NCBI RefSeq assembly: GCF_003730135.1
Contig: NZ_RJVO01000002.1
Coordinates: forward strand, 124,001 to 188,000
Length of the DNA: 64,000 nt
Direction of reading: 5' to 3'
Source of the DNA: Stagnimonas aquatica
GTDB lineage: Bacteria; Pseudomonadota; Gammaproteobacteria; Nevskiales; Nevskiaceae
The translations under genes and the position numbers were made by a program. Position 1 is the stretch's first letter, and the number at the start of each line of letters is the position of its first letter. Of the stretch, positions 1 to 25,617 are shown one piece after another. The notes under the pieces were generated by a model. That model made no database searches and was not told the DNA's origin. It saw only the letters and a program-made list of their open reading frames with translations.

Positions 1-2
1 AG

Positions 3-590: not shown

Positions 591-621
591 TCTGCGGTAC
601 CGGCAAATCGTAAGGGCAACT

Positions 622-3923: not shown

Positions 3924-3933
3924 GGCCCCACTA

Positions 3934-4152
3934 ATGTCCTGGAATCAGTTTCCATCTTTCACGTCATCGAATTTGGCGTCGGCTCGATACGAAGAAACGC
4001 AAGCCATTTTGGAAGTAACCTTTCACAATGGAGGAACCTATCAATATTTCGACGTTCCATCCCATATTGCTGAAGCAATGAAGAATGCCGACTCTAAAGG
4101 CGCTTTCTTGGCGGCCAATATAAAAGGACACTACAGATACAGCAAAGCCTAA
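3934..4152 (+). CDS. KTSC domain protein
   Basis: This 72-residue single-domain protein matches the KTSC family, the small domain also found at the C-terminus of some lysyl-tRNA synthetases. The conserved pattern is an SSNLASARYEE start, a beta-strand with F/Y-HNGGTYQYFDVP, and a C-terminal FLAANIKGHYRY segment. The start ATG lies 10 nt after the herA stop, in the same direction, so it is probably the third gene of the SIR2-HerA operon. Biochemical function is unknown. Stand-alone KTSC genes are common beside many gene types, so a defence role rests only on position. Confidence 0.75.
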   Translation: MSWNQFPSFTSSNLASARYEETQAILEVTFHNGGTYQYFDVPSHIAEAMKNADSKGAFLAANIKGHYRYSKA

Positions 4153-4209
4153 AAACAGCTTTTACTAAGCAGAAAACCGCAATGCCTTACAAAAGCAAAT
4201 CACAACGAC

Positions 4210-5610: not shown

Positions 5611-5714
5611 AGTCCCTCGTCAGACACAAAATTCAATAGTCGCTTTCGGAATACTTACCGCCGTCCTCCCACAATATTCCCCAGAAAACACTAAATAATA
5701 TTAAGAATTATTTA

Positions 5715-8447
5715 TTAGTATGACTCCAGATATTCCCTTATTTTTTCCAGCACATGGAGTGGCGAGGGCATCTTGACCCAAATGTCACCACGTGCTTGTG
5801 GAATCCCCGCACGGAGGTGATGGCCGAGCCCAGCTAAAACAGTCGGATCATCATTCAGCTGCCGACGCAGTACGGCGAGCTCAATTGGGTTCGGAGTCTG
5901 ATGCTGCGAATACTCTGCATCTCGCTCCTCGAACCCTAGGCGATCAGCTCGAAGAACATACTTCGATCGGTAGCAACTGGTGCCCCGCTTGAATTGGCCA
6001 ATCGTCCGAGCAATTGACCAGTACGTTGGTACAACAGTATCAGCAGCCTCGATTAGACGCTGTACTGGCGTTGCCCACTCGATAGAACGATCTCCAAATA
6101 ACGCTGATCGTTGGTGAACGATCATAGGAGCGTTTTCGCGAACTCGGATCAGACGCAAGCTATTCCACTTTGGAAAGGCTTGTCCATCAATCACAATGTC
6201 GTCGGATTTTGCTTTGGGATTGGTGAGCATTGGCCAAAATCGCGCCATATTTGTGGCATCGACAAAAACGACAGCGTTGGCGTCCTCGCTCGACAGCGAG
6301 TCAAATGACTCTCGAAGCAACTTAGAAATTAGACTCTTCTGCGCGTTGTAGTCCCCCATCGTCAGGCGCCCGCGCCCGGCGACGTATCCGAGCGCCTCGT
6401 CAAACGTCATCCAGGTTGTAACGATTGCCTCCGACTCGAGATGGGCCAGCTTGATGCAAGTTTTGCCGGTCGCGACCTCAATGCGGGCGGTTGCAACTAG
6501 GGTTGCAAGGTCAGCCCTCTCGCCAATTCGGATATACCCGATACCGGCCAGGAATTGCGGACGCGAATCCATGTCCGGAAAAGCAGCCTCAACTACTGCC
6601 TTCAGCCCCATCACACATCCGGCATGGCCATATCGAAGGTCTAGCAATGCCGATTGAAGGCGCACCAGATAGCCATCCATCCGGCCTCGTTCAGGCGGCA
6701 GTAGATACTGAACCGTGCCTCCCCCGACTCCGGAGAGAGTTCTCACTGCAGCAACCTTATTGACGGAATCGTCCTGACCGCCGGGATAAAAATCGGCTGC
6801 TTGAACTAGGAACATGGGCCGACTGCCGAATTCATTCGACTCGATGAAACGCCGCCAAGCAGCTACGCGACACTGGAAACGTTCGGCAGAGTTGAGTTCC
6901 GAACCTGGCAATCCATTTCTCGGTCCGTGAACATCAGGCGGGAGTTGTACCGCAGTAACCTTGACCTCATCGCCGACCATCATGCTATCGACCGCCTTTA
7001 TCCACATGCTCGACTCGCCGGTATTGAGCAGAAGATAAAGATTGCGTCGGCCCGGATCGGTGCGAACACCCATCCCCTCCACGACTCGGCTAACCAAGCC
7101 CGCTAAAGTGCCTTCATAGCGCTCTTCTAAGCCTTTAACATTTTTCGAAAACCACTCACTCAGAGGCTTCTGAGTTACGCGACGAAGCGCCTCATCGACA
7201 CTTTCAAGTACGGGCTCTTCAAGCTGCTCGCCTTGATCACGAAACAAGCGATTGAGAATCATCGCAGGCTTGAAGACGTCAAGACGGGGTACAGCTTTGG
7301 CTTTACGCCCCGGCGTTACCTTTTTAACCTCAGAATGACCGTCGAAAATCCGGAATCCATAAGGTTCGAGGATTCCCACAATGGCATGCGTTGCGTCCAA
7401 TTGGTCGGTAGCAGATACGCCCGCCCCCAAGTCAGGCTCACCCAACGTCGTCACCTTCGCTTTGTACATTAACAATGCTTCGGCAGTTTCGTCGTTTGGA
7501 TAGTCCACGACTTGCTCGTTGGCATATCCAACCTGCATGCCGAAATGACTCACGAGCTCGTCAAATGCTTCATCAGTTCGCCAGATCTTTCGGCCTTGCT
7601 CGAACTTCATCGTCGCGTTGAACGAAAACGCCTCATGAGGCCTAATCGCCTCAGAAAGTACAAAACCTCCGATGTTTCGCTCGGCAACGTAACCTTGCTC
7701 AAAACCTGAGGCCCAGCGTCGACGGAAAAAGCGGAGATAGACGACCGGCTGCCGAGCTCCAGGTAATGTTTCAAGCGAAATCCTGCACCCCAAGCTAAAT
7801 CGCCCTTTACCTGCTATCTGCGGTCGACTAAAAAGCTCCGCCGAATTGGACTGGTCACCGACAACACGAAGCATTGGGCCCAACCCTGGGAACACCTCTT
7901 TTCCAGCCAGAAGACGCGAAATCTGTCCCGCCGTTACCTTATAGAAGTCCGTCGGAGCGCCAGCGACTCCCCATGGGAATGCCTGCATTTCGCGGTGAGC
8001 TACTGAAAACAGTGAGCGCGTCCGAATTAGCTGCGTTAGTTGGCTGATCGCTTGCCCAGAAACGCCGTAAGCCTGAGCCCATGCGGATAGCCGACCTTGA
8101 ATCCACTGAGCAGCAGCGTCTTGAAGATCATCGATACTTAAGACCGCATTCCCCTCAAGATATCCAAAGGGGTCCGCCGTCATTTTTGTTTGACGCAGGC
8201 CGAGGCCAGGATCCATGGAGGCGAATCGTGGATCTGCAATAAGAAGCGATGCGCGCAAGCTGGCGTAAGGCAGGCTGAGCTTTTCTTTGCCCCTTGCTCG
8301 ACTGACCTCTCCGGATACGGCGCGTTCGCGCATTCCCGCAAGAATTCTGAGCGCATCTGGCGACCAAGATATGGCGGCAACACTGACCGCATGCGGTGGC
8401 ATCGACAAATCGAATTTGAGCGCGAGCACTATGTCTTGGCCTTTCAT
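5715..8447 (-). CDS. pPIWI-RE family protein (MID/PIWI-like, DUF3962/DUF3893 type)
   Basis: This 910-residue protein is the last gene of the three-gene pPIWI-RE island described computationally by Burroughs, Iyer and Aravind. The N-terminal half corresponds to the X/MID-like region. The RNase H-like PIWI half includes VVFVDATN (726-733, candidate acidic residue D730), an RVRE segment (768-771) that could be the family's namesake R and E, and a C-terminal TPNPIEL motif (851-857) followed by HHLRAGI. The expected role is nucleic-acid-guided recognition of invading DNA or R-loops with the helicase and nuclease encoded upstream. The gap to the helicase gene is 5 nt. Family assignment rests on architecture and partners; activity is inferred. 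Confidence 0.8.
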   Translation of the reverse strand: MKGQDIVLALKFDLSMPPHAVSVAAISWSPDALRILAGMRERAVSGEVSRARGKEKLSLPYASLRASLLIADPRFASMDPGLGLRQTKMTADPFGYLEGNAVLSIDDLQDAAAQWIQGRLSAWAQAYGVSGQAISQLTQLIRTRSLFSVAHREMQAFPWGVAGAPTDFYKVTAGQISRLLAGKEVFPGLGPMLRVVGDQSNSAELFSRPQIAGKGRFSLGCRISLETLPGARQPVVYLRFFRRRWASGFEQGYVAERNIGGFVLSEAIRPHEAFSFNATMKFEQGRKIWRTDEAFDELVSHFGMQVGYANEQVVDYPNDETAEALLMYKAKVTTLGEPDLGAGVSATDQLDATHAIVGILEPYGFRIFDGHSEVKKVTPGRKAKAVPRLDVFKPAMILNRLFRDQGEQLEEPVLESVDEALRRVTQKPLSEWFSKNVKGLEERYEGTLAGLVSRVVEGMGVRTDPGRRNLYLLLNTGESSMWIKAVDSMMVGDEVKVTAVQLPPDVHGPRNGLPGSELNSAERFQCRVAAWRRFIESNEFGSRPMFLVQAADFYPGGQDDSVNKVAAVRTLSGVGGGTVQYLLPPERGRMDGYLVRLQSALLDLRYGHAGCVMGLKAVVEAAFPDMDSRPQFLAGIGYIRIGERADLATLVATARIEVATGKTCIKLAHLESEAIVTTWMTFDEALGYVAGRGRLTMGDYNAQKSLISKLLRESFDSLSSEDANAVVFVDATNMARFWPMLTNPKAKSDDIVIDGQAFPKWNSLRLIRVRENAPMIVHQRSALFGDRSIEWATPVQRLIEAADTVVPTYWSIARTIGQFKRGTSCYRSKYVLRADRLGFEERDAEYSQHQTPNPIELAVLRRQLNDDPTVLAGLGHHLRAGIPQARGDIWVKMPSPLHVLEKIREYLESY

Positions 8448-8452
8448 CCCGT

Positions 8453-11400
8453 TTATTCCCCTTCTATGTTCAACAAAGGCGTACCCAAGAAATCTCCTTC
8501 TTCTGTATCGCTACTTTTCCCCGTCAGCTTGGATTGGAGCCCTGAGACCTTGCGCAAAGGATCAAGGAATGAACCAAATAGCTCTCGATAAAGCCATGCA
8601 GCAGTAGCGTCCGACTGAGAGACTCCCTCCTCAAGCAGATAGCGCAACTGAACGAGCATGCTTGAGTTCTGACTGTCGTCCTCGCCGACCGCAGATTTAG
8701 GGGCCCACGCCGAGTCGACAAAAAAGCACTGCGCAGGACAGCCGTTGCGCATCGCGCGCCCAATAGTCTGTAACAAGATGACCGCAACATCTGCGGTGAA
8801 AGGTTTGAAAAGCTCCCCGAGAGTGCGCGAATAAAGCGGGTGGCGAAGAAGTTTCCCGACCCTCTTGTAAGTCTTCCCTCGAGCTTTCGTAAGCTTTTCA
8901 GCAAGACTCCCCATTGAGGTCACTGTTGAGAAATCCTGCATGTCGAAGCTCTGGGTGGCGGATGCTCCTAAGCTGACTAGTAGCGAGAGATCTTCGGGAC
9001 TTGGGTGCGGTCGAGTGAGGAAATAAAGACTTCCAATCGCTGCGTCGAGCTTTCTGGGTCCACTGGTGAAGACGATGTTGGCACCTCGACCCAGCGCCCC
9101 CATTGGAAAGATGAGAATGTCCCAGTTCGGATCGTCGCCCAAGGCTTCGACACGTGCGGCCGTGACATAGCCAACGTCGCCTAGGTGCTCCGGCAGTTCT
9201 TTAACTACGGCTACAACACGGCCACGCCACGCGGGGTAGCGTTGATCAATGTATGTCTTGAGTCGACGACACTGATCGTAGCTATTCACCACGAATGCAG
9301 CTCTTCGCTTTATGCCCTCACGGACATCGAACGTATCGCAGTCCCGCCAGAGCTGAGATTCACTTGGGCGGCCGTCCAAAAGTGAATCAACCATGCGCTC
9401 TAAATTGGAAAGCCTTTGATGCTCTGACCGAACTCCACTGAATCGATAGTGCCGTTCGCCCATCAACTCGCCGGTCTCTACTGGTCGAAATGCATAAAGT
9501 GATGACTGCTTTGCAGCGAAACCGGAGGCACGGCGGAGAATGTAGTGCGGCCCACTTGCGATGTGAGAGGCCGGGCTATCAGGCAGGTAGCTGGTAGCAC
9601 TGGTGAGGAGTACAGACGGACCATCCCGTGTCCCATCCGGACGAACACACCACTCGTGCAAGTGGTAAAGCAAAGCACGAGGAGCTCCCGAGAAAACAAC
9701 ATACTGCAGTCGAACGTCGAACAGGTCCCCCTTACCGCCCGAAGGTCCACGACTTGCAGCGAAAAATCGCACTCCAGAGAGACTGCCCAGCAAATTTTCT
9801 GGCGTTAAATCGAGTAATGCGTCAGAGCATCGGCGCTCGGCGGCGACTGGAATGAAGCCGTGATCTTCACCCAGCTGCGCCAATTTCGGCGACAGGCGCC
9901 GATAACCCAATATCGTGAAAGTCACAGCGATCAGCAACGCACAAACTTCATCTGTGTCGCCTTTGCCCGACGGCTTCACATAAGGCTTTAGAAGCTCGCT
10001 GATCTTTCGCTCTTGCTCTTCTCGCTGCTGTCGATTTACCGCATTGAGCCACCGAGCAAGCTCGGCCAGCAGGTTCGAACGAAGTTGATTAACAGTCTCA
10101 GTGTCTGTTCGAAGTCCAGCAGCCAACCGTTGCAATTCGTCATCAGCTAAAGTCTCGTTGCTTTCCGAGGTAGCAGCTCGGAACTGAAATGCCGGAATTG
10201 CAGCACTCTCCCATATCGAGCAAAGCGCATCTTTTGCCCGAGCATTTCCGTCTCTGAATTCTGCATCTGGATTTAACCCACTGTGCTTCGGAGGAGACAG
10301 CCAATCTCCGATGATTCGCAAAGTGGTCAACAACATCCCCTGCAACTCGTTCCGCAAACGATCAGGAAGTCGTTGCACGGCACTGATTAGGCAGATGTTT
10401 AGCTTTTCAAACTCCGCAGCTTCGATAGCAAGTTGGGCGAGGGAGTCATCGCCTAGCCATGCATTGACCCCCTTGCCGAGGAGCTGCAACGTCGTCTGCT
10501 GAGCCTGGTGATGAAAAGAGAGCGCATATCCGGACAACTGGAGCTGCGAGATTCCGCTCATGTCGAGATCGCGCTGCGCTTGATCCGCCTCATCGAAAAT
10601 GACCAGATCGAACTGCTCGGCGATCAAGTCGAAATATCGGATGTCCAATGCCGTCGTATGCGACGGCACTTTTGTGTCGGCTGACAAGACATGCCCCAGC
10701 CAAACAGAGGCAGTAGGTAGTTCACGTGGCGCACGGTTCAGCGAACATACGGACCAGGCTGGACACAGGTGCGCCTTGCCATCACGCGACTTTTCCGTGA
10801 CTTGGATGACATCTCGGCAAAAGCGGCTCTGAAAGCCGAACGCCTCCGATGGAGCTTGCGTAAAGGCCGGAAGGACACAATTCCCCTCGAACAACGGTGC
10901 AGAAGTCGTCGTGTTGGCAAAGCCCCTCAGGGAATCGCCGGTAGCAATTGACTCGGCAAGCTTGAGCGCGTGACGCTCACGTGTGGATCGACTCTGACCA
11001 ACAAGGAGGCCGGCGTTAACTTCGTACCCGCGCAGGTCATCTAGGTACTGCCGACACATCTCGATCGACGGCATGAACATGGCAACGCGGATACCGAATG
11101 CTTCGCAGTGCCTTAACAGACACATGAGAACCGTTGTCTTCCCCGCGCCCGGTAATCCGATCAAATGCTTCAGCCCTGTTAGATCGATTTCATCAACTGG
11201 AACGGGCGATGTCATGACCTTTTCAAGGTTTACAGCCTCAAGCCTCTTGCGCCAGTTACCAGGGCGTTCAGAGCCTCGACTCGTATCGATTTGATCCATC
11301 AAATCTGCTTGGTCGAGAAGCTGGGACCATCGGATGCGAATCGGCTCTCGCCGTCGCGTCTCAACTGAATGGGCAATAGGCGCTTGCAGATCGCTGGGTA

Positions 11401-11854
11401 ACCCCACGACTCCGTAGCGTCTCCTTTCTCCCGCGTAATCGACGCTGATCTCTATGGGCAACTTGTTCGACGGAAGCTTCTGCCCATGCTTTCCATGTTG
11501 CCGCGGCTGAGAGAGATGCCTCAGCCCCTCTTGGATTGCCAAGCTCGGCACATCGAACATGGGTTTGAAAGTGAGTGATTTCTCGTCGATGAGGTATTGG
11601 CGCGAATTACGATCGTTATAGCGAGCTGCATTCGCGCGCAAGGCCGGCAACGTGGTCATCCCGCGGCATAGCGTCCTCAAATTGATCAAGCTAACGCGAT
11701 GAGGCTTAAGCAACTGGCTTTCAGCGACACTTTGATAGCCCATCAAAAGAATGGGAGCGTCGATCAACGACCGACTTCCCAGGACGTGCTGCAGAAAGCC
11801 ACACAAGATGTCGAGCTTGTGAAGGCGCAGAGATTCGATTACTGGATCTTTCAT
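8453..11854 (-). CDS. DinG-like superfamily 2 helicase of pPIWI-RE system (pPIWI_RE_Z type)
   Basis: This 1133-residue helicase has Walker A GLPGAGKTT at 233-241, DEAD Walker B at 421-424 and motif VI QTIGRAMRNG at 1029-1038. Four cysteines between motifs I and II (C326, C346, C364, C370) could ligate an iron-sulphur cluster as in XPD/DinG helicases; this is my reading of spacing, not proof. The roughly 230 residues before Walker A match the accessory region expected of the pPIWI-RE helicase. The gene overlaps the end of the nuclease-like gene by 4 nt (ATGA) and precedes the PIWI gene, so all three are one transcription unit. Probable role: unwinding target duplex or R-loop for the PIWI protein. 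Confidence 0.82.
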   Translation of the reverse strand: MKDPVIESLRLHKLDILCGFLQHVLGSRSLIDAPILLMGYQSVAESQLLKPHRVSLINLRTLCRGMTTLPALRANAARYNDRNSRQYLIDEKSLTFKPMFDVPSLAIQEGLRHLSQPRQHGKHGQKLPSNKLPIEISVDYAGERRRYGVVGLPSDLQAPIAHSVETRRREPIRIRWSQLLDQADLMDQIDTSRGSERPGNWRKRLEAVNLEKVMTSPVPVDEIDLTGLKHLIGLPGAGKTTVLMCLLRHCEAFGIRVAMFMPSIEMCRQYLDDLRGYEVNAGLLVGQSRSTRERHALKLAESIATGDSLRGFANTTTSAPLFEGNCVLPAFTQAPSEAFGFQSRFCRDVIQVTEKSRDGKAHLCPAWSVCSLNRAPRELPTASVWLGHVLSADTKVPSHTTALDIRYFDLIAEQFDLVIFDEADQAQRDLDMSGISQLQLSGYALSFHHQAQQTTLQLLGKGVNAWLGDDSLAQLAIEAAEFEKLNICLISAVQRLPDRLRNELQGMLLTTLRIIGDWLSPPKHSGLNPDAEFRDGNARAKDALCSIWESAAIPAFQFRAATSESNETLADDELQRLAAGLRTDTETVNQLRSNLLAELARWLNAVNRQQREEQERKISELLKPYVKPSGKGDTDEVCALLIAVTFTILGYRRLSPKLAQLGEDHGFIPVAAERRCSDALLDLTPENLLGSLSGVRFFAASRGPSGGKGDLFDVRLQYVVFSGAPRALLYHLHEWCVRPDGTRDGPSVLLTSATSYLPDSPASHIASGPHYILRRASGFAAKQSSLYAFRPVETGELMGERHYRFSGVRSEHQRLSNLERMVDSLLDGRPSESQLWRDCDTFDVREGIKRRAAFVVNSYDQCRRLKTYIDQRYPAWRGRVVAVVKELPEHLGDVGYVTAARVEALGDDPNWDILIFPMGALGRGANIVFTSGPRKLDAAIGSLYFLTRPHPSPEDLSLLVSLGASATQSFDMQDFSTVTSMGSLAEKLTKARGKTYKRVGKLLRHPLYSRTLGELFKPFTADVAVILLQTIGRAMRNGCPAQCFFVDSAWAPKSAVGEDDSQNSSMLVQLRYLLEEGVSQSDATAAWLYRELFGSFLDPLRKVSGLQSKLTGKSSDTEEGDFLGTPLLNIEGE

Positions 11855-13317
11855 TCGATCGCCTTCATTCGCTTCAAAAGGGCTGACATCGACAAAAATT
11901 CAATGTCGGAGCCACCTCGGTACTCGCGCTTGAGCACCTCCAAGTAGTTTGGAAAGCGTTTTAAGCTTTGATCGTTTATGGCGACGATCTTTTTCTCATA
12001 AAACGAAAGAAGGCCTGGTTTTTTTGACAATGCCTCCGCGAGCACAAAAGCATTTGAATGACTCTTCACATCAATGCCTGTTTTGCCCCCATCAAAGCTG
12101 ATGTCGCAAGAATCAAAATCGGGATACAGCATGTACGGCAAACTCAAATTTTCTGCTTTCCGAGCGATAGCGAGCTCATCGATCGCCGGACCGATCCAGT
12201 AGGTCATCACATGCGGGCGAGCGATTCTGGTGTTTGCGCCGTGCTCGGAACGAACCAAAGTCGGATCGACAGGCTCCTCAAAGCCAACACATTGCGGAAT
12301 TACGCAGGCGACTTTTCCAGTCACTCGCGCTGCACGCATTGGCGTCCTACAACTCTTACAACGGTACAAACCACCATTTACTAAATGGTGTGGTTGAACA
12401 GACTCGTAGCAGGAGTTTATGAAAGCCACCGCAAGCTGAATCGCCTGGGATCGCTGATAGACACGGATCTCGTCGACAGTCGTGATCGCGTGCTCGGCTA
12501 TGAATCTGCGCAAGATCGTGTAGACCTCAGGCGCACGGCCTACAAAACGATCGCTTGTCGCCCGAAGCTCTTCGAATGCCAGTTGCTCTAGTAGGTCGAG
12601 TTCGTTTCGAGCCAATCGAGCCATTTCTACGGCGTCAATCGTCGGCAAGCGAGTCGCTGGGTCAAGAAGTCTCACCCCAGCAAATGCAAACTGGGGATCT
12701 TCAAATACCGGCAGGTTCCAAGCACCCGAGGCAAAGGTTTCACGACAGCGAGCCAACACGTCATGCACTGAGCCGAATTCATCGACGAGCCCAGCCGAGA
12801 CCTTCAGTGCACCAAGCCGCAACATGGCTAAATACATGGCGTGGGGCAAAAGTGGACCTTGAATCAGGACGTCCCCGCCACGGCACGCTCGATAGACCTC
12901 CACAACAGCGATAGCCAGAAGGCGTACAGCCTGCTCAGCACGCTCCCGCGTCTCGCGAGAAACGGAAATCCCCAAGTGCTCGGACGCCGACATGGGTGCT
13001 CGAATAGCCTCAAGCAAATTCTCAGGAGCCTGGTGCGGAATCCAATCTGCAAGTTGTTTACGGGACCAACGCACGTCGGCTAATCGCCGTGCAGCAGCAA
13101 GTTCCAGAATGTGCCGCCAGGTAAATTGCTTCCCCTCCGGAGCGGAGAGCACCCCAATTTGCCGGTACGCAATCACCCCATTTCGGCCGTACGGCTCAAG
13201 CGATAGCGCGGCTTTGCTGAGAAGCGAGTTGACCTTCTCAGCCAGTCCAGACGCAGATCCGAACCAGTCACGAGATGATCTTATTTCATTGATTAATAAC
13301 GATATTTTATCCGACAT
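11851..13317 (-). CDS. PD-(D/E)XK-like nuclease of pPIWI-RE system (pPIWI_RE_Y type)
   Basis: This 488-residue protein is the first gene of the operon. A mid-C-terminal Zn-knuckle (CKSC ... C-x5-C around ACVIPQC) precedes a restriction-endonuclease-like core: D400, D402 and D405, then GIDVKSH with D416 and K418, fitting D-x(n)-D/E-x-K. I chose the ATG because the TTG two codons earlier gives no better ribosome site and because a -10 box lies exactly 7 nt upstream of the ATG. That spacing would make the A of ATG the first transcribed base. No Shine-Dalgarno sequence is visible. Inferred role: the nuclease arm of the pPIWI-RE defence system. Confidence 0.8.
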   Translation of the reverse strand: MSDKISLLINEIRSSRDWFGSASGLAEKVNSLLSKAALSLEPYGRNGVIAYRQIGVLSAPEGKQFTWRHILELAAARRLADVRWSRKQLADWIPHQAPENLLEAIRAPMSASEHLGISVSRETRERAEQAVRLLAIAVVEVYRACRGGDVLIQGPLLPHAMYLAMLRLGALKVSAGLVDEFGSVHDVLARCRETFASGAWNLPVFEDPQFAFAGVRLLDPATRLPTIDAVEMARLARNELDLLEQLAFEELRATSDRFVGRAPEVYTILRRFIAEHAITTVDEIRVYQRSQAIQLAVAFINSCYESVQPHHLVNGGLYRCKSCRTPMRAARVTGKVACVIPQCVGFEEPVDPTLVRSEHGANTRIARPHVMTYWIGPAIDELAIARKAENLSLPYMLYPDFDSCDISFDGGKTGIDVKSHSNAFVLAEALSKKPGLLSFYEKKIVAINDQSLKRFPNYLEVLKREYRGGSDIEFLSMSALLKRMKAIE

Positions 13318-13363
13318 GTACAATATTATACATACAAGAAAATGCTTTGTATAATATTATACA
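13317..13363 (-). promoter_or_regulatory. Leaderless promoter of pPIWI-RE operon inside two palindromic operators
   Basis: Two 16-bp sites lie with centres 31 bp apart, about three helical turns. The distal one (TGTATAATATTATACA) is a perfect palindrome and the proximal one differs from it by one base. On the minus strand TATACA in the distal site and TATAAT in the proximal site are separated by exactly 17 bp, as in a sigma-70 promoter. Seven bases separate TATAAT from the ATG. A dimeric repressor on both sites would cover -35 and -10. The sites are seen directly; their use as promoter and operator is inferred. No obvious repressor gene is encoded next to it. Confidence 0.65.
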
Positions 13364-14704: not shown

Positions 14705-14809
14705 TGGTGCCCGGGGCGGGAATCGAACCCGCATCAGCTCGCTTATCTGGCGAGTGCTGTGAACCGGTTTATAAGGCCGGCGCTTTGAACCAATGTCAGC
14801 CACCCGGGC
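14705..14809 (-). tRNA. Type-II (long variable arm) tRNA with UAU anticodon, CCA encoded
   Basis: Read on the minus strand: a perfect 7-bp acceptor stem GCCCGGG/CCCGGGC, discriminator A and encoded CCA. Conserved tertiary bases are present: U8, A14, G18G19, A21, U33 and a T-loop TTCGATT on a 5-bp stem. The anticodon loop CTTATAA gives UAU (codon AUA), with a C-A mismatch at the last stem pair. A 31-nt variable region folds as CAG-(CA)-CTCGC...GCGAG-CTG. Total length is 105 nt with CCA. Isoleucine tRNAs normally have short variable loops, whereas long arms belong to Leu, Ser, Tyr and Sec tRNAs, so the charged amino acid is uncertain. Its 5' end can also join an upstream 9-bp hairpin (GGGCGTTGA/TCAACGCCC). 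Confidence 0.75.
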
Positions 14810-16506: not shown

Positions 16507-17538
16507 TCAGCTAGGACAGGTCTTCTTCAACGCGGCCACTTGCTCCAGCACCTCCGCGCGCACGACGTCTCGCGGTCGAGCCAGGGGGCCCAATCGCCAT
16601 TTTTTGTATTGGCCGTGCAACGGCTTCAGGCTTTCCTCGAACCACTCAAGCTGTGGAGTTCGGTAGACCACTCGTCTGATGCTCGGCCTAGGCGTCTTAG
16701 CCGCTTCCACCATCCAGTCGCACAAATCCTCCAACTTGTCCTTCGAGGGATTGCCCATTGTCTTCAGCCATTTTCTGGCACTGACGTAGCCAGCCGGGGA
16801 TGGGTCGGGTTCCTGCGTTCGACATCTCGCGACCTCCGCAAAATTCAGGGCCCGCTTTTCCACAAGGCGCAGGCGAATGACTGCCTGAAGAAGCTCTGAC
16901 AGCCCCTCTTTCATGGATTCCGAGGGCCAGAGTTCCTGAGGGGCCGCTAGCATTTCCATCTCTAGGGCCGCTGCTGACGCATGGTCGCGAAGAATTTCCG
17001 ACTCCCTGTACAACAGACACAGCAGCGATAGGGAGGCGATCCTTGGCCACCCCCTCCGCAGAGCACGGAGCTCTCGGCGAAGTTCTACAGCCTCTGGAGG
17101 AACAAATGCGGGTTCTTCTGGGAATGTCCACTGACCAACCGACATGTCATCGGGCGCCACGCGGTAGCACGAGTTTTCCCTGACCAAAACGTCCAACGCT
17201 TCCTGGACCCGTTCCGACGGCATCTGAGGATCTTGAAGCAGCTCCCAAATCGGAGCTTCGAACCAAAGCCGCGCTTCCTCGCAGCCCCCGTCTCGATGCA
17301 CTGCGTGGAAAAGCGTAGCCCCGCCGCGACCACGTTTACCGGCGAAAGACCTTGGTGACGCGCCGTCACGGCGTATTTGGAAGAACAACCGCCGGCGCGC
17401 AGATGACATCACCGCTCCGAATCGTTCGTCCAAAGCGTCGTCAGAAAGCTGGAGCTCAGTCTTTACCAGCCAGCACCACCCCCAGTTCCGAATCCGGGCC
17501 GCGATATCGATTTCCGGACGCCCTCGAGGCCGCTTCAT
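16507..17538 (-). CDS. Hypothetical protein with N-terminal AT-hook-like motif
   Basis: This 343-residue protein is not recognised. It begins MKRPRGRPEID; the RGRP core with basic flanks resembles an AT-hook, a minor-groove DNA-binding motif. The middle is leucine- and arginine-rich and helical. There are no membrane segments and no obvious catalytic motif. Codon use is GC-rich but lower than the host genes to the right. It is divergent from the next small gene and convergent with the HEPN-like gene, so it is probably a stand-alone accessory gene, perhaps part of the Tn7-like element's cargo. Confidence 0.55.
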   Translation of the reverse strand: MKRPRGRPEIDIAARIRNWGWCWLVKTELQLSDDALDERFGAVMSSARRRLFFQIRRDGASPRSFAGKRGRGGATLFHAVHRDGGCEEARLWFEAPIWELLQDPQMPSERVQEALDVLVRENSCYRVAPDDMSVGQWTFPEEPAFVPPEAVELRRELRALRRGWPRIASLSLLCLLYRESEILRDHASAAALEMEMLAAPQELWPSESMKEGLSELLQAVIRLRLVEKRALNFAEVARCRTQEPDPSPAGYVSARKWLKTMGNPSKDKLEDLCDWMVEAAKTPRPSIRRVVYRTPQLEWFEESLKPLHGQYKKWRLGPLARPRDVVRAEVLEQVAALKKTCPS

Positions 17539-17958: not shown

Positions 17959-18180
17959 GCGGACAAGAAAAAGCCCCGACAGCGGTAGGACGCTTATCGA
18001 GGCTTGGTCGAAGAATTTTGCAGGTTCTTCTAAGGCCAGTATCGCGCATCCAGAAAATCCGTCAAGCCCCATCCAGGGGCTGGGACAACTGTGCCGACTT
18101 GCTCCTAAAGGCGTCCACCGCCACCGCCCAAAACGGGCGTTTCCCAGCACACGAAAAACAACTCCGCCTTCTCTGGCGGG
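17959..18180. other. Structured non-coding leader upstream of tnsA
   Basis: Several compact hairpins follow one another. A minus-strand terminator-like stem has 9 bp (AAGCCTCGA/TCGGGGCTT) and a TTTCTTG tail. GAAGAA/TTCTTC comes next, then AGCCCC-ATCC-AGGGGCT, CGCCC-AAAA-CGGGCG followed by TTT, and CCGCC-TTCTCT-GGCGG just before the tnsA ribosome site. No gene with a ribosome site fits here. It could be a transposon-end region, a leader attenuator or a minus-strand small RNA. TnsB-binding repeats matching those at the other side were not found. Confidence 0.4.
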
Positions 18181-18215: not shown

Positions 18216-18992
18216 ATGACAGATCCATCTGAAATTGCAGTAAGGCCGTCCGGAACAGCGCCGTATCTCCGGGCCGTTGCTGAATGCTTCCATCGACGAC
18301 CCGACGCTGCCGGCATCCTGCAGGGCGTCCGCCCGATGCGCCAAGGCGTTCCCCACACGCGCATCGTGCTTGTCCCCTCCAGCAAGAACGGCGGAACTAT
18401 CGCCTGCGAGGGTCGCCTGGAAGCGGCGCTCGCGAAGAATCTGGAGATCGATCCGTTCGCAGCGCGGTTCCGGGGACAGCCGTTCTCGATGCCCGGCCCC
18501 ATGAGTCGCAAAGTCGTGTGCGATTTCGCCGTGCAGCAGTCCGACGGCATTTACCTGGTCGTTGACGTGAAGCCGAGCGGGCAACTGGCCAGCGCGAGGG
18601 TCGCCGAACGCATGCGTCACGTACGAAGCCTGTTGGCGGATTCCTTCGTGCCACACCGGATCGTCACGGAGCTCGACCTGGAACGTCAGCCAGCCCGCCA
18701 GATTCGCGACCAGCTCTGGAAGGGCGTCGATGCGCCGGTCACCGCGCACCAGCGCGACGGCCTACTCGGCTTCGTTCGCCGCGGCCCGGTGACGGTCGGT
18801 CAGGCCCGCGAGTTCTGCCGATCCGAGCGGCTCCCGGTCTTCGCCATCGAGAAGCTCGTGATCCGCAATTTCCTGTCTTTCGAAATCAATGCCCCTTGGG
18901 GCAGCAAAACCCTTATTGGAGATCGTCATGAAAGCCATTCTTCCGCTCGTGCAGTTTGGGGCTCAGTTCAAGATGTTGTCGTCCGACTATGA
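18216..18992 (+). CDS. tnsA: TnsA endonuclease of a Tn7-like transposon
   Basis: This 258-residue TnsA-like restriction-endonuclease-fold protein makes the 5' nicks that, with TnsB, give cut-and-paste transposition. The catalytic pattern is present: E65 (in CEGRLEAAL), D103 (in VVCDFAV) and D117-V-K119-P. The C-terminal half fits the DNA- and TnsC-interacting domain. The start ATG was chosen for the upstream AAGGAG. The frame is open further upstream, but that part shows no family features. It is the first gene of an operon in which every following gene overlaps or nearly abuts its predecessor. Confidence 0.85.
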   Translation: MTDPSEIAVRPSGTAPYLRAVAECFHRRPDAAGILQGVRPMRQGVPHTRIVLVPSSKNGGTIACEGRLEAALAKNLEIDPFAARFRGQPFSMPGPMSRKVVCDFAVQQSDGIYLVVDVKPSGQLASARVAERMRHVRSLLADSFVPHRIVTELDLERQPARQIRDQLWKGVDAPVTAHQRDGLLGFVRRGPVTVGQAREFCRSERLPVFAIEKLVIRNFLSFEINAPWGSKTLIGDRHESHSSARAVWGSVQDVVVRL

Positions 18993-20262
18993 GGTGGTGC
19001 ACGTCGGCAAGGATCAACTCCGCATTACACCGATGCAGGGTGGGCCGACGCGCGTCATGAAATTCGAGACCCTTAGCGAGCTGGTTGAGCAGGGTCAAAT
19101 CAAGGCCGAATACACACCGCCGTCTGCCTCCGATCCGCTCGGCGAAGGCCTCTACTCCGGTTTGACCGAAGCACAGCTGGAGCAGCTCAAGCGGAGACTG
19201 CACTACGTGCACGGTGTTTACCGCGCCAACGAGAATCCGTGCTCGCAGAAGGAAATCCGAGCGCAGATTCCGGAACTCGCCAAGCGCCTCAGCGACCAGG
19301 ATCCTCCGGGCGCATCCACGATCGCAAGCTGGGTGAAGCTATGGCTCGATGGCGGCCGCAGGGATGCCGCCCTGATGCCTAGCATCAAGCCGTCGCGCGC
19401 CGTCAGCAGTCTCGATCCTGATGTCGACCGGATCGTTTCGGAGTCGATCCAGCAGGTCTACATGACCCGCCAGCGGAACTCGATGAAGGCGGTGTGCGCC
19501 GATGTCCATCTCCGCATCACTCAGTACAACGAGCATTCGGCAGCTCAGCTAGAAGCTCCGTCGGCAGAGACCATTCGACGAATCATCCAGCGGATTGACC
19601 TCTACGCCCGCAACAAGGAGCGCTATGGCACGGCCTACGCGCGACGTCGACATCGTGCGGTGGGCCGGGCGTTCAGTGCCATTTCAATTCTGGACCTCGC
19701 CATGGCCGACGGGCAGATCATGGACATCATCGTCGTGGATGCCGACGGCCAGGACATCGGGCGCCCCTTCATCACGGTGATCATCGACGTCTACTCACGC
19801 TGTGTACTGGCGGCGCACGTCAGTCTGGCTCCATTCAGCGGTGCCACGCTGCTCAAGACCATGGCCGAAGCCGTGGTGGCGAACGGAAAGGAGCCCAGGG
19901 GAATCATGAGCACCCTGATCGTCGACAACGGCTCCGACTACCGTCACGCCGGCTTCGTCCGTTTCTGCTCCCAACAGAACATCGTGGTCGAGCCGTGTCC
20001 CCCGAGGTCCCCGAACGGCAAGGCCATCGTTGAACGGTTTTTCAGGACTCTGAATCAGGGGCTGATCCACAAGTTTCCCGGCACGACCTTCTCCAATCCG
20101 ACCTCACGCGGTGACTACGCATCGCAGACGTTCGCGCGGATGACGATCGACGACATCCGCAAGCACGTGAAAGTCTGGATCCACGACGTCTACCACCTCG
20201 AAATCCACCGTGGCATCTGTCGGGCCCCGATCGATGTGTGGTCGGAAGGGCTCAACGCATGA
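18928..20262 (+). CDS. tnsB: TnsB-like transposase, catalytic protein (DDE), lacking the C-terminal domain
   Basis: This 444-residue protein carries N-terminal helix-turn-helix regions and an RNase H-like rve core: D261 (in MADGQIMD), D333 (in LIVDNGSDY) and E369 (in GKAIVERFF), a D-35-E spacing. TnsB/TniA cuts the 3' ends and joins them to the target. Full TnsB/TniA proteins continue with a Mu-transposase-type C-terminal beta-barrel. Here the frame stops at WSEGLNA, exactly where that domain should begin, and the missing domain is encoded by the next gene. The preferred ATG follows a GGAG site and lies 65 nt inside the tnsA end. It is the defining gene of the element. Confidence 0.85.
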   Translation: MKAILPLVQFGAQFKMLSSDYEVVHVGKDQLRITPMQGGPTRVMKFETLSELVEQGQIKAEYTPPSASDPLGEGLYSGLTEAQLEQLKRRLHYVHGVYRANENPCSQKEIRAQIPELAKRLSDQDPPGASTIASWVKLWLDGGRRDAALMPSIKPSRAVSSLDPDVDRIVSESIQQVYMTRQRNSMKAVCADVHLRITQYNEHSAAQLEAPSAETIRRIIQRIDLYARNKERYGTAYARRRHRAVGRAFSAISILDLAMADGQIMDIIVVDADGQDIGRPFITVIIDVYSRCVLAAHVSLAPFSGATLLKTMAEAVVANGKEPRGIMSTLIVDNGSDYRHAGFVRFCSQQNIVVEPCPPRSPNGKAIVERFFRTLNQGLIHKFPGTTFSNPTSRGDYASQTFARMTIDDIRKHVKVWIHDVYHLEIHRGICRAPIDVWSEGLNA

Positions 20263-21092
20263 AAGTCCCGATTCGAACCCTGTCTGCCAAGGACGCGGAG
20301 ATCCTGGCACGGTCCTCTGTTAGCGCTGTGGTCAGCAAAGGCTATGTCGAACGACATGGCCTTCGCTGGAGATCCCACGCGCTGAGGGAATGGGAGCTGC
20401 GTCGGCGGAACCGAAATCAATCACGCGCAGTCGAGCTGTTGATCGACGAACTCGATCTGACCGTCGTCTACGTTGTTCTTCCAGCCGAGGAGGGGATCCC
20501 GTCCGTGAAGCTACGAGCGGAGTCGACGCAGCCGATGTACACGCAGTACCTGTCGCTTTACGAGCACCAGAAGTTGAAGGCCGTGCTCAAGGAGAAACAC
20601 CTTCAGTGCCGACTGGAGCGAATGGCCGACACCGAGCTCTATCGATTAAGGCTGGAGTACTACGCCCTTCTAGGGCGGCAGGAAGACCCGATCTCTGCAC
20701 GGCGCCTCGAGAAGATTCGGGACGAGCTCGCAGCTCGCCGCAATGAAAGTGGCAGGTCGGAACCGCCTGACATGCTTGCCTCAGAGGAACCCGAGACAGT
20801 ACTCGGTGAGGCTCGATCTCCGGACGGGATGGCCGATGCGAATCCGGAGAAGCCACCCAGCAGGAAGAAACGCGGCAGACCCCGAAATCCAGCCGGCGGA
20901 GCGGCTCCGTCGCCGCCACCGTCTGCCGACCCATCTGTTACCGACCCGCCTGTCGAAGCACCTCTGCCGGCCAGTGCTGCTCCCGAGCCTGACGCACCTG
21001 CCCCGGCGACCTCTACGTTTTCGAGCGCCACGCGCGGCGTGAAGGCCAACCCCAGCTTTTCATCTTTGTCTATTCGGAGAACTCCGCGATGA
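20259..21092 (+). CDS. Separate TnsB C-terminal domain protein (Mu-C-like barrel, AT-hook, basic tail)
   Basis: The 277 residues start with IRTLSAKDAEIL and a charged HALREWELRRR block. The strand pattern LDLTVVYVVLP follows, which matches the Mu-transposase C-terminal barrel that follows the catalytic core in intact TnsB/TniA proteins. A helical region, an AT-hook-like KKRGRPRNP (203-211), a Pro/Ala-rich linker and a short basic tail ending SIRRTPR follow. TnsB C-terminal tails contact TnsC in studied elements. The start ATG overlaps the tnsB stop as ATGA and has GGAAGGG 8 nt upstream. That supports genuine reinitiation rather than a sequencing error. The frame is shifted by -1 relative to tnsB. 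Confidence 0.7.
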   Translation: MKVPIRTLSAKDAEILARSSVSAVVSKGYVERHGLRWRSHALREWELRRRNRNQSRAVELLIDELDLTVVYVVLPAEEGIPSVKLRAESTQPMYTQYLSLYEHQKLKAVLKEKHLQCRLERMADTELYRLRLEYYALLGRQEDPISARRLEKIRDELAARRNESGRSEPPDMLASEEPETVLGEARSPDGMADANPEKPPSRKKRGRPRNPAGGAAPSPPPSADPSVTDPPVEAPLPASAAPEPDAPAPATSTFSSATRGVKANPSFSSLSIRRTPR

Positions 21093-22153
21093 ATACCTAC
21101 GACACCACCACGCTGTCTCCGGACTGCGCCGCCGCAAACGATCTTCCGCCCAACGAAGCCCTGCTTCTGGAGCGTTTGAGTTCAGCCGTCATCAATCACC
21201 CTGAAATGGCGCACGCCTCCCGGTTGGTCGATAGCGTCATCGCGATGAATCGCCACTACTCCGAGCCCCGCCACCTGCTGGTCATTGGGGATTCGGGCTG
21301 CGGAAAATCGACATTGTGCGACCTGATCGAGAATCGGTATGGGACTTTCGACCAGGAGTTCCGTCTGGGCGTACAACGTAATGTCGGCGCGCTCATGACC
21401 TCGGTGCCGAGCCCCGTGACCCCGCGGTCCATGGCGATCCAGATGCTTCGCAGCATGGGAATCACCCGCAGACTCAATCAGCCGACCCAGGCACTTACCG
21501 AAGAACTGATCGAGCAGTTCAGGCAGTGCGACGTACGGGTTGTCGTCCTCGACGAGTTCCAACACCTGCTGTCGGTCGGTGAAGGCGGGGAAAAGCAGGC
21601 CCCTAAACAGTTGAGGCAGGTCCAGGACTGGATCAAGACGCTGATCGTGAAGTCCGGAGTGAGTTTCATCCTGTTGGGCCTGCCGTCGTCCACCGCGCTA
21701 CTGCTGGCCGAGGATCAGATGTCACGGCGGTTCAACCAGATTTTTCGGCTGCGCGCGTTCCCGATGCCCGCCGCGAAAAAGCCCAGCACGATCGGTGCCT
21801 TTGTCGGCGACCTCCTGTTCTGTGCCGTCAATGAGCTGAGCTTCTTCGACGATGCCGTGTCGTTCGAGGATCAGTCCTACAACGCTCTGCGAATACATCT
21901 GGCAACCGGTGGGGTTCCAGGCCCGATCAAGGATCTGGTGATCAACGCGGCACGACACGCTCTGGTGCGAGGCGACCGGATCATCACGCTGGCTCACTTC
22001 GCGTCGGCCTACGAGTCGGTCAGTAGAAGCCTCGAAACGCAAAACGAAGTGCGCAGGGAGAACGGAGAGCCAGGCCTGCCCACCTCAGTCATCAACCCTT
22101 TCACCGCGCCGGAGCAGTGGGTGCTCTCGCAGGCGTATCAGAAGGCGGCCTGA
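21089..22153 (+). CDS. tnsC: TnsC/TniB-like AAA+ ATPase
   Basis: This 354-residue AAA+ regulator has Walker A GDSGCGKST at 67-75 and Walker B VVVLDEF at 151-157. RRFNQIFRLRAF carries the arginine residues expected near sensor 2. The length and the conserved QHL after Walker B fit the TniB/TnsC group. The role in the family is to link the target selector (TniQ) to the TnsAB transposase and to impose target immunity. It starts by an ATGA overlap with the upstream gene and ends one base before tniQ, so translation of all five genes is chained. Confidence 0.88.
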   Translation: MNTYDTTTLSPDCAAANDLPPNEALLLERLSSAVINHPEMAHASRLVDSVIAMNRHYSEPRHLLVIGDSGCGKSTLCDLIENRYGTFDQEFRLGVQRNVGALMTSVPSPVTPRSMAIQMLRSMGITRRLNQPTQALTEELIEQFRQCDVRVVVLDEFQHLLSVGEGGEKQAPKQLRQVQDWIKTLIVKSGVSFILLGLPSSTALLLAEDQMSRRFNQIFRLRAFPMPAAKKPSTIGAFVGDLLFCAVNELSFFDDAVSFEDQSYNALRIHLATGGVPGPIKDLVINAARHALVRGDRIITLAHFASAYESVSRSLETQNEVRRENGEPGLPTSVINPFTAPEQWVLSQAYQKAA

Positions 22154-22154
22154 G

Positions 22155-24251
22155 ATGATCGCCCACCTTCCCTTCAGACCCCGCGCTCAAGCGGGGGAGT
22201 CTCCTCTCAGCCTCTTGCGGCGCGCTGCACACGGCAATGGCGTTCGGTCGACGCTGGGCTTCGCGGTCAGCCTCAATCCGGAGATCGACTACGCCGAGAC
22301 CGCGCTCGGGACACTGGCACGCAACCCGGAGCTGTTCCGGAACACATGTCTGGCGGTCGGCATCGCAGCGGCTGATATCGAATCAACGGTCTACCGTCGA
22401 GTCGGCGCCGGCGGTCGCGACCAACTCATCTGGAATGGACTTCGAGTTCCGGTCGGCGGATTGAGCTTCCGGCGTGCAAAAACCTGCATCACCTGCCTTC
22501 AGGAACAGGGCTACTCGGCAAGTGAGTGGGATCACCGCGCCGCAGCCGCATGTGCCCGACACGAAGTCTTGTTGATGGATGCCTGTCCGCTGTGTCGTGC
22601 GGCGTGGACTCACGATCGAGGAGCCTTGGCGTGCCGGTGCCCGGCCGAGCAAGTTCAGGCCTTGGCGATTCCCACTCCCACTCCGGCCGCCACGCTGTTG
22701 CATCGATTGATCGCCGCCAGCGATCAGGTCGGGCTGTCGCTGCTCGGGTGCGTCGAGCAGGTACTAACCTGGTGGCAACGTCTCGGGCTCAGCCTGGAGC
22801 CGCTTTCGAGAGCTGTGGCGTTGGAGAGGCTGTTCACGGGCCGATGGCCAGAGTCGCCTCCAATGGCAGATGGCGCTGACAGCAAACGGCTTCATCCACG
22901 CGTTGCCTTGGCGCCTCTTCTCACCAGCCCGCATCCGGCAGGCAGAGACCTGGCGGCAAAGCTGCTGGAGAAGGATGTCCCTCACCTAGTGGGCGCTCAT
23001 CTCGATGCCGTGATGAGCGCCAGTGACGCCATGGCAGTCCTAGGCCTGAGGAGGGTGCCTTTCGGCAAGCTGGTTCGTGATCGGCATTTGGTGCCGAGAT
23101 TGGGTGTTTTCGCGGTCTCCGATCTCGATCAACTGCTGTGGTCGACTCAAGGGGCTCATGCGCCGAGCCAGGACCTGGTCTCGATTCAACAGCTTCGTAC
23201 CGGGAAGCATCGACTGTCGCTATCCGCGATCGTCGGTGAGATACATGCCGGAGGGATCAAAGCCTATCACTGTCCGGTTAATCGGGGTCTCGAGGGCCTG
23301 CAGGTACAGGATCCGTCAAAAGCCAAAGCGCCCGGCAGATTTCCGGAGTTCGGGCTGAAGGAGGTGGCGCTGCATCTCGGCGTGCATACGGAGTGCGTCC
23401 GGAGCCTAGTTCGGACTGGGCTGCTCAGCGCCAGTCGTGACATCAGTGCCGCCGGCGTGAGGTGGACCTTCGAGCCAGAAGCGGTCGCCCAGTTCGAAAA
23501 CACCTACGTCTTCGCCTCCGTCCTCGCCAAGGCACACGCCGCACCTGTGACGACGTTCGCAAGCCGCATCCGATCGGCGGGCATCGCTCCGGCGAGTGGG
23601 CCGGACATGGACGGTGGCCTGACGTACGTCTTTCGGCGGGCGGAGATTGCCGGCCTGGACTTCAACCGGATCGCGACAGGTGACTACGTGTCCCCGGCCG
23701 GAAGGCGGCCTCTTTCAACCCGGCGGCGGAAGCAGACGTTGGGCTGGGCCGGGGCCGCCCGAACGCTGGGCCTGTCATCCCAACAGCTTCGCGTCGCTGC
23801 GGCGGATGGATGGATTGATCTCTCGGGCTGCGCGAGCGACGCCCGAAGGTTCATCGAGGAGGACGTGCACGCCATTTGTGATCGAGTGACTCAGGACCAC
23901 CTGCCGCTGCTGGCCGCAGCGTCACGGCTGAGTCAGACACCTTCCCAGTTTCGAAAAACCTGGGTGGACACCGGTTTGATATCAGTCCGGCGGCTCGGCG
24001 ATCGGGACTTGGTACCGCTGGCCGACCTCGAAAGCCTGCAGGCCCTCTGGGAACAACTCGCGACAGGATCGGAAATCGGTCGGCTCACGGGGCGTCACCG
24101 TACGCTCTGCTCCAACTTGGAGAAGATTGGTCAGCTTCGGCCGGTCCGGGTGATCGGCACGGGCACACGCAAGGTAAAGCTGTACTCGCGGGCCGCCGAG
24201 GCCTTCGCGCGCTTCCTGCCGGCGAATCCAGCGATAGCCGATACCGCGTGA
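22155..24251 (+). CDS. tniQ: TniQ/TnsD-family target selector
   Basis: This 698-residue protein opens with the TniQ-type LPFRPRAQAGESPLSLLRRAA. Zinc ligands follow: C111-x2-C114, C133-x2-H136, C144-x2-C147 and C160-x-C162. The long C-terminal part has at least four helix-turn-helix-like units, for example around ALHLGVHTECVRSLV and RLSQTPSQFRKTW. Such long TniQ proteins resemble TnsD, which recognises a specific chromosomal site. No Cas genes or CRISPR repeats are present in the window, so protein-directed targeting is likely. The operon terminator follows about 115 nt later. Confidence 0.85.
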   Translation: MIAHLPFRPRAQAGESPLSLLRRAAHGNGVRSTLGFAVSLNPEIDYAETALGTLARNPELFRNTCLAVGIAAADIESTVYRRVGAGGRDQLIWNGLRVPVGGLSFRRAKTCITCLQEQGYSASEWDHRAAAACARHEVLLMDACPLCRAAWTHDRGALACRCPAEQVQALAIPTPTPAATLLHRLIAASDQVGLSLLGCVEQVLTWWQRLGLSLEPLSRAVALERLFTGRWPESPPMADGADSKRLHPRVALAPLLTSPHPAGRDLAAKLLEKDVPHLVGAHLDAVMSASDAMAVLGLRRVPFGKLVRDRHLVPRLGVFAVSDLDQLLWSTQGAHAPSQDLVSIQQLRTGKHRLSLSAIVGEIHAGGIKAYHCPVNRGLEGLQVQDPSKAKAPGRFPEFGLKEVALHLGVHTECVRSLVRTGLLSASRDISAAGVRWTFEPEAVAQFENTYVFASVLAKAHAAPVTTFASRIRSAGIAPASGPDMDGGLTYVFRRAEIAGLDFNRIATGDYVSPAGRRPLSTRRRKQTLGWAGAARTLGLSSQQLRVAAADGWIDLSGCASDARRFIEEDVHAICDRVTQDHLPLLAAASRLSQTPSQFRKTWVDTGLISVRRLGDRDLVPLADLESLQALWEQLATGSEIGRLTGRHRTLCSNLEKIGQLRPVRVIGTGTRKVKLYSRAAEAFARFLPANPAIADTA

Positions 24252-24528: not shown

Positions 24529-24687
24529 GGCCTATTGCCGGATTTGCAGGCTCAACCGATCTGGGGCACCAATTCGCATATTCGCAAGGCCATGATTTTG
24601 TTGAAGGCCCTTACAGGGAGAGAAAAGCCCCTACGCAAATATCATCCCCATGGACCCGCCTTGTAAAAGAACCAAAGCGGGGCTTGG

Positions 24688-25395: not shown

Positions 25396-25617
25396 ATGAG
25401 CAAAGCTAAGCCGAAACCAGATACCTCCGACATCGCCGAAGTCACCGATTGGTCCGGCGCGGTGCGTGGCCGCTTTCATACCGCCGGCAAGAAGGTGCTG
25501 AAGCCAGCCAGCGTAGCCCGGATGCAATCCGGGGCTTTGGTTCGAACGTGCACTCCCGGATTTCATCCGGGCTACGGACCTAGCGCGGAACAAAGGCGAA
25601 CAAAGGGGTCGGAGTAA
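25396..25617 (+). pseudogene. Antitoxin-like N-terminal fragment running into a REP element
   Basis: The reading frame begins MSKAKPKPDTSDIAEVTDWSG and continues AVRGRFHTAGKK, a pattern seen at the start of small conserved DIPE-DWS-AVRGKF proteins often paired with toxins. After about 45 residues it enters a REP palindrome and continues through repeat-derived sequence to a stop. The C-terminus is therefore probably replaced and the gene truncated. The identification as an antitoxin relative is by pattern only. Confidence 0.4.
25512..25576. repeat. REP/BIME-like inverted repeat pair
   Basis: CGTAGCCCGGAT ... ATCCGGGCTACG forms a perfect 12-bp outer inverted repeat. The inner arms (GCCCGGATGCAATCCGGGG and CCCGGATTTCATCCGGG) are themselves palindromic. 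This is the form of REP sequences mobilised by RAYT transposases in gammaproteobacteria. No RAYT gene is in the window. Confidence 0.75.

Follow-up and report, generated by a model that had tools for sequence, protein, structure and literature searches.

The stretch of DNA analysed here (hereafter the window) comprises 64,000 nucleotides (nt) from within the 3.8-Mb genome of Stagnimonas aquatica (contig NZ_RJVO01000002.1, positions 124,001 to 188,000; G000:C2:124001-188000 in our numbering). It carries a Tn7-like element of 24,027 bp, located at 609-24635, with the genes tnsA, tnsB1, tnsB2, tnsC and tniQ, all on the plus strand. The tnsA gene (18216-18992, 258 amino acids) overlaps tnsB1 (18928-20262, 444 amino acids) by 65 nt. 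Judged by sequence, TnsB1 carries the end-binding region and the DDE catalytic domain of the TnsB transposase, and TnsB2 (20259-21092, 277 amino acids) carries its beta-barrel, C-terminal helices, Pro-rich linker and basic tail. The two genes that follow encode a TniB-type AAA+ ATPase (tnsC, 21089-22153; Pfam TniB, 5.3e-22; profile of six proteins against VchTnsC, 2.6e-31) and a TniQ protein of 698 amino acids with a helix-turn-helix at residues 401-447 (tniQ, 22155-24251; Pfam TniQ, 2.9e-12, and HTH_17, 2.8e-06).

The division of TnsB into two genes recurs in four relatives: L014 (= L020), in a Nevskia metagenome-assembled genome (MAG); L015, in genome G064; L016 (= L021), in Solimonas sp. 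SE-A11; and L017 (= L022), in a further MAG. Their TnsB1 proteins are 54%, 45%, 50% and 54% identical to that of the window, respectively, and their TnsB2 proteins 45%, 40%, 36% and 36%. Five assemblies under four genus codes, the window included, thus divide TnsB at one and the same residue, each time with an overlapping junction, and since all five carry this split, a lost base cannot explain it. The first-pass annotation of the sequence, made without database searches, had argued that the split was natural rather than an error, and the relatives uphold this view: conserved across four genera, the split has the appearance of a genuine design rather than of a mistake in sequencing. The exact length of the tnsA/tnsB overlap, 65 nt in seven of seven near members, split and fused alike, marks a subfamily of five split and two fused elements. 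In eight outgroup elements, this overlap ranges from -8 to 16 nt; for L018, L027 and L028, the figure depends on an estimated tnsB start.

The list of relatives was drawn from samples of 85 genomes of the same order, 369 of the class, 398 of the phylum and 210 of the order of Thiocapsa. TnsB2 matched 7 of the 85 and 4 of the 369 genomes, and its profile 6 of the 398, the genome of the window being counted each time; in the class and phylum samples, all matches except the window and G064 lie in frames of 556-916 codons. One of these frames, of 628 in the phylum sample, belongs to L031 (minus strand), a locus that was not extended. The match in G039 (3.7e-4) covers the tail of TnsB2 only, and this genome was left out of the comparison, as were G155 (L013) and G715 (L033). 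Scanning genome contigs with the TnsB1 alignment A2 yielded nine loci, three of them split, from Nevskia, Solimonas, Thiocapsa and Methylophaga records and one MAG labelled Flavobacteriaceae, among others; the same scan with P0001 alone and IMG/VR scans with P0002 and with A2 returned no relative. As a base rate, the Pfam model Mu-transpos_C was matched 21 times, in 18 of 143 genomes, and the sole match in a frame shorter than 457 codons (244) was the split element of G064. This control is only partial because the model does not detect the TnsB2 of the window. Two further DDE/Mu-C pairs were not accepted as independent natural splits: in Polaromonas pPNAP04 (L037 2399-4207), the two genes lie in the same frame with a stop between them, likely a decay of a different kind, and in Sinorhizobium, IS66 genes lie directly downstream.

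TnsB1 and TnsB2 meet in an ATGA start/stop overlap (20259-20262), and the tnsB2/tnsC junction, with the tnsC start at 21089, uses an ATGA overlap as well. Both frames and both junctions agree with what the first-pass annotation had described. A candidate ribosome site, GGAAGGG (20244-20250), of weak signal, lies within the 3' end of tnsB1, with a spacing of 8 nt to the tnsB2 ATG at 20259. Among the split elements, the junction reads ATGA in the window and L017, GTGA in L014 and L015, and ATGCTGA in L016. In L015 and L017, the tnsB2 frame is closed 12 nt upstream of the tnsB2 start; TnsB2 can therefore start there only at the overlap and not inside tnsB1.

The identity of TnsB1 is supported by a profile of the five TnsB1 proteins, which finds Tn6677 TnsB (9y7b) with an E value of 2.6e-39; the window protein alone scores as an integrase core (Pfam rve, 1.8e-07), with 31.8 bits against a cut-off of 32.6. 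Residues D261, D333 and E369, which we take to be the catalytic Asp, Asp and Glu from the general pattern of DDE enzymes, are invariant in the five split elements. The five-protein TnsB1 profile matches PseTnsAB up to chain residue 652 (position 447 of 450), and the five-protein TnsB2 profile matches the same chain from residue 671 (position 15; E 3.8e-4). Upstream, TnsA has no Pfam family at 0.001. A profile of nine TnsA proteins, in which E65, D103 and K119 are invariant, matches PseTnsAB (6.9e-11) and Tn7 TnsA (0.008).

TnsB2 matches no family in NCBIfam or PHROGs, and Pfam gives just an insignificant match to DUF4752 (0.27); its identity rests, therefore, on position, alignment to fused relatives, the PDB profile match and fold. 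The AlphaFold2 model (mean predicted local distance difference test [pLDDT], 69) shows a barrel, then helices, and a tail modelled with low confidence, with ten-residue pLDDT means of at least 85 over residues 21-110. The model aligns with 8ea3_W (Z 10.4, root mean square deviation [rmsd] 6.3, 130 residues aligned) and, by VIA-align, with ShTnsB 407-515 (8rdu_R; Z 9.8, rmsd 2.4, 104 aligned), TnsABCD (9bw1_M; Z 9.4, rmsd 4.6, 121 aligned), Tn7 TnsB 500-596 (7pik_D; Z 7.9, rmsd 2.3, 83 aligned) and MuA 480-560 (1bcm_B; Z 6.9, rmsd 3.5, 69 aligned). The predicted fold of TnsB2 thus matches the barrel and helical part of TnsB. In a model of the fused Thiocapsa TnsB (mean pLDDT 71), retroviral integrase catalytic cores can be aligned as far as residues 441-450, the barrel starts at about 463, and the split of the window maps to about 446. 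The claim that the catalytic frame stops at a domain border is borne out by this model and by the profile matches to PseTnsAB, which place the split between the catalytic domain and the barrel. A Pro-rich linker is recurrent in the TnsB2 proteins of the split elements, and a basic C-terminal peptide, [SQN][IL][KR]R, recurs in four of the five. The AT-hook proposed at first was rejected as a shared feature, because KKRGRPRNP, a motif of the window TnsB2 that we presume to be AT-hook-like, was not seen in the four split relatives.

The two Thiocapsa elements (L023 and L024) share with the window the 65-nt tnsA/tnsB overlap, a Pro-rich basic tail and the same end repeats, but their TnsB is read from a single open frame of 750-751 codons (705 amino acids from the first aligned ATG in L024), and no tip is found after nrdB. 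Their TnsB1 regions, 91% alike to each other, are 49% and 48% identical to the window (tblastn), and their C-terminal part matches only the two Thiocapsa genomes among the 210 of their order. An intact frame in close relatives had been named in advance as an argument against the split; these two elements are the only such case, and they bear on the ancestral state, not on the question of error. The eight outgroup elements (L010, L011, L018 in genome G068, L019 and L025-L028) also have a single TnsB frame. Since the outgroups examined are fused, the fused TnsB is most likely ancestral.

The element was delimited by comparison with three genomes of the same genus, in which the left flank is conserved: the counterparts of window 1-588 and of the window DNA that begins at about 24.7 kb (for one of the genomes) or 26.4 kb (for the other two) lie 0.1-2.4 kb apart, which locates the insertion. 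It is bounded by two copies of the 5-bp target-site duplication CAAAT (604-608 and 24636-24640). The left tip, CGTAAGGGC (609-617, plus strand), matches the right tip, GCCCCTACG (24627-24635, plus strand), at eight of nine positions. Repeats resembling TnsB sites, with the form C[GA]AATC..., often followed by ATAGC, lie inside both ends as predicted binding sites: two on the left, on the minus strand (658-677 and 733-752, CAAATCTGG...), and four near the right end (24422, 24455 and 24501 on the plus strand, 24546 on the minus strand). Similar repeat arrays follow tniQ in L015, L023 and L024, where CCTACG likewise stands after the array. Within the flanks (175 and 170 nt), this is the one tip pair with a perfect 5-bp duplication, and none of 500 single-base shuffles gave one. 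A much wider search found seven tip pairs of equal quality, the chosen one included; for this reason, support for the tips also comes from their position beside the repeats and beside nrdB and from the CCTACG that L015, L023 and L024 have as well. An initial search for ends starting with TGT found none, and a shorter element suggested by repeats at 18027-18063 is unsupported by the tips found later. Outside the element, a short inverted repeat, CGTAGCCCGGATGCAATCCGGG / CCCGGATTTCATCCGGGCTACG, lies at 25512-25576.

The left tip lies 18 nt after the stop codon of nrdB, the gene for the ribonucleotide reductase small chain, whose 3' part is at 93-590 on the plus strand (Pfam Ribonuc_red_sm, 1.5e-42). 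The same 18-nt distance is found in G053 (Solimonas), where nrdB lies about 50 kb from tnsA and the right tip was not found, and in G064, the left tip lies 10 nt after the nrdB stop, with a duplication matching at four of five positions (CTTTC/CTTTG). These observations suggest that this TniQ recognizes nrdB as its attachment site, with insertion after nrdB also in G064 and probably in G053. No tip was found after nrdB in G022 or in the two Thiocapsa genomes, in which nrdB is on a different contig; in G028, only an nrdB fragment was matched. Searches for a right tip in L021 and in L022, and for the insertion site of L014/L020, were negative. The intact ends of the window element suggest that its transposition machinery worked. 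Its host genome has one TniQ match and one TnsB2, and the only other TnsB1 match is a protein in a 597-amino-acid frame at 26%. Because the host has no other TnsB2 or TniQ and only a distant TnsB1, the element probably depended on the split transposase that it encodes; a helper transposase since lost from the host is possible.

Could the two frames nevertheless yield, or once have yielded, a single TnsB? Programmed -1 ribosomal frameshifting, as used by IS3-type and some other DDE elements, would join them into one working polypeptide. TnsB2 is indeed in the -1 frame relative to TnsB1 in all five split elements, but any ATGA overlap gives -1. The possible shift windows of the window element, L014 and L016, the longer three, contain runs of four or five identical bases; those of L015 and L017 are 16 nt long and have no run of four, an XXXYYYZ slippery heptamer is found in none of the five, and ATG or GTG stands exactly at the overlap in each of them. 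We regard frameshifting as very improbable. A TnsB pseudogene, arising through decay or a base lost in sequencing or assembly, would find parallels in the fused sisters at 48-49% identity, in the broken-looking Polaromonas and Sinorhizobium pairs and in the two-frame tnsC of Tn6553-v1, ascribed to sequencing errors (PMC9605922). Against this, both halves are conserved over long divergence in five assemblies and four genera, and the presumed catalytic residues, the duplication and the tips are intact, so that we give this explanation almost no credence. As a last alternative, TnsB2 might act on its own to regulate TnsC, perhaps as a free competitor or a target-immunity factor, with TnsB1 no longer needing it. 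TnsB2 does correspond to the parts that touch TnsC in relatives, but it also keeps the helices that fold back on the catalytic domain in those relatives (PMC13228271), and its linker and the borders on either side line up with those of the fused sisters, no additional domain being apparent. Such a role appears very improbable to us.

We consider it quite probable that ordinary gene fission divided TnsB between two overlapping genes, whose products rebuild the TnsB protomer non-covalently, TnsB2 acting as an activator through TnsC. Several observations weigh against this explanation, beyond the tnsC precedent just cited. The GGAAGGG that the first-pass annotation had put forward as a ribosome site is in place but not exceptional, 42 of 461 in-frame 18-mers of tnsB1 pairing equally well with the anti-Shine-Dalgarno sequence; the site is also weak in L016 (60 of 508 as good). 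Pairing upstream of tnsB2 is better in L017 (27 of 446), L014 (10 of 482) and L015 (3 of 467 as good). L014 and L017 share one genus code and are both MAGs, and L017 lacks the [SQN][IL][KR]R form of the tail. The TnsB2 tail also lacks the Trp/Leu/Phe pattern reported for the PseTnsB hook (PMC13228271). Finally, in a tree of all 15 elements, the fused Thiocapsa pair nests among the split elements (88/92); once three long branches are taken out, a split clade is recovered at only 72/73 (68/70 for TnsB alone), and the competing topology could not be rejected (p-AU 0.40 and 0.27). These sequences are compatible with a single fission that left the fused sister outside, with two separate fissions, and with a fission followed by re-fusion.

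Under the fission hypothesis, ribosomes finishing TnsB1 would restart at the overlapping start codon to make TnsB2, and the two proteins would come together non-covalently at the transposon ends. TnsB1 would then pair and cut these ends with TnsA, and the tail and barrel of TnsB2 would contact TnsC at the target chosen by TniQ, switching TnsB1 to strand transfer. This proposal draws on what is known of CRISPR-associated transposons (CASTs). In PseCAST, an I-F3 system, the TnsB tail alone binds the targeting (TnsC) complex, and the barrel and helices of the paired-end complex are disordered until the target is bound, taking on order in the presence of TnsC and target DNA; the helices fold back on the catalytic domain, and this ordering shifts the helix of the catalytic glutamate and remodels the active site (PMC13228271). 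In ShCAST, TnsB without its C-terminal region or hook is inactive in transposition, and C-terminal fragments of ShTnsB bind TnsC filaments without disassembling them (PMC9371665). TnsB2 corresponds to the TnsC-contacting C-terminal region plus the barrel of these proteins, and we infer that its tail binds TnsC. Made separately, the activating module could differ in amount from TnsB1 or could already be on TnsC when TnsB1 reaches it. The altered stoichiometry or new regulatory step suggested in the first-pass annotation would be plausible. More tentatively, and with some doubt on our part, TnsB2 might be a separate licensing subunit, sitting first on TnsC at the target and then handed to an end-bound, otherwise inert TnsA-TnsB1 complex. 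If so, the protein linking target choice to catalysis could be limiting, swapped from one element to another or produced in excess.

In the Tn7-like elements and CASTs studied so far, catalysis is tied to target recognition by TnsC through the barrel, helices and tail of TnsB. With this activating module on its own gene, it becomes possible to ask whether it acts in trans, in which ratio to TnsB1 it works and whether activation is separable from cutting. A split TnsB may also be a natural starting point for two-part programmable transposases.

The remainder of the element carries defence cargo (839-13323), namely a SIR2 (5e-132) and HerA (3.6e-157) pair and a three-gene pPIWI-RE (Ppr) set. Of eight element proteins submitted to PADLOC, five match the SIR2, HerA and Ppr families and three are without match, no search with cas models having been made. 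A tRNA-like gene with an apparent long variable arm lies at 14708-14809 on the minus strand (Rfam tRNA, 52.5 bits; ARAGORN, none). Upstream of tnsA, a minus-strand gene (16507-17538) has no family match in Pfam, PADLOC or PHROGs; it is weakly similar (26%) to the gene at the corresponding position in L021, and that gene resembles its own counterpart in L022.

The element has the features expected of the Tn7-like group: a TnsA-type gene upstream, a DDE domain and a Mu-type barrel, TnsC/TniB and TniQ proteins, a 5-bp duplication, end repeat arrays and insertion beside a conserved gene. It departs from the usual form, though not from a normally defining feature, in that TnsB is not one polypeptide. 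Fission of TnsB is undescribed in the literature within our reach. In the portions of PMC10293859 available, 'split' is used of TniQ-TnsD, of a model and of comM, never of TnsB, and neither 'nrd' nor 'ribonucleo' occurs there or in the accessible parts of PMC11406308. Literature searches for nrdB and for MuA domains acting in trans returned no paper.

Among solved systems, the I-F3 CASTs (Tn6677 and PseCAST) are the closest relatives by the sequences of TnsB1, TnsB2, TnsA and TnsC. They have one TnsB chain, whereas the window element has two, and its TniQ, with 698 amino acids and a helix-turn-helix, also sets it apart from them. The Acinetobacter plasmid element L010 has tnsA, tnsB, tnsC and tniQ in the same order as the window, and L011 has the first three, with no TniQ match; in both, TnsB is a single frame, unlike in the window. 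We assume that these two elements are tied to the Tn6022/AbaR group. Tn6022 uses TnsF and targets comM (PMC10293859), in contrast to the site after nrdB occupied here. A precedent for a changed division of the transposase into chains is provided by the I-B2 and I-D CASTs, which carry TnsA-TnsB fusions (PMC11406308). These systems redivide the transposase by fusing two proteins, whereas the window element would do so by fission of one, TnsB.

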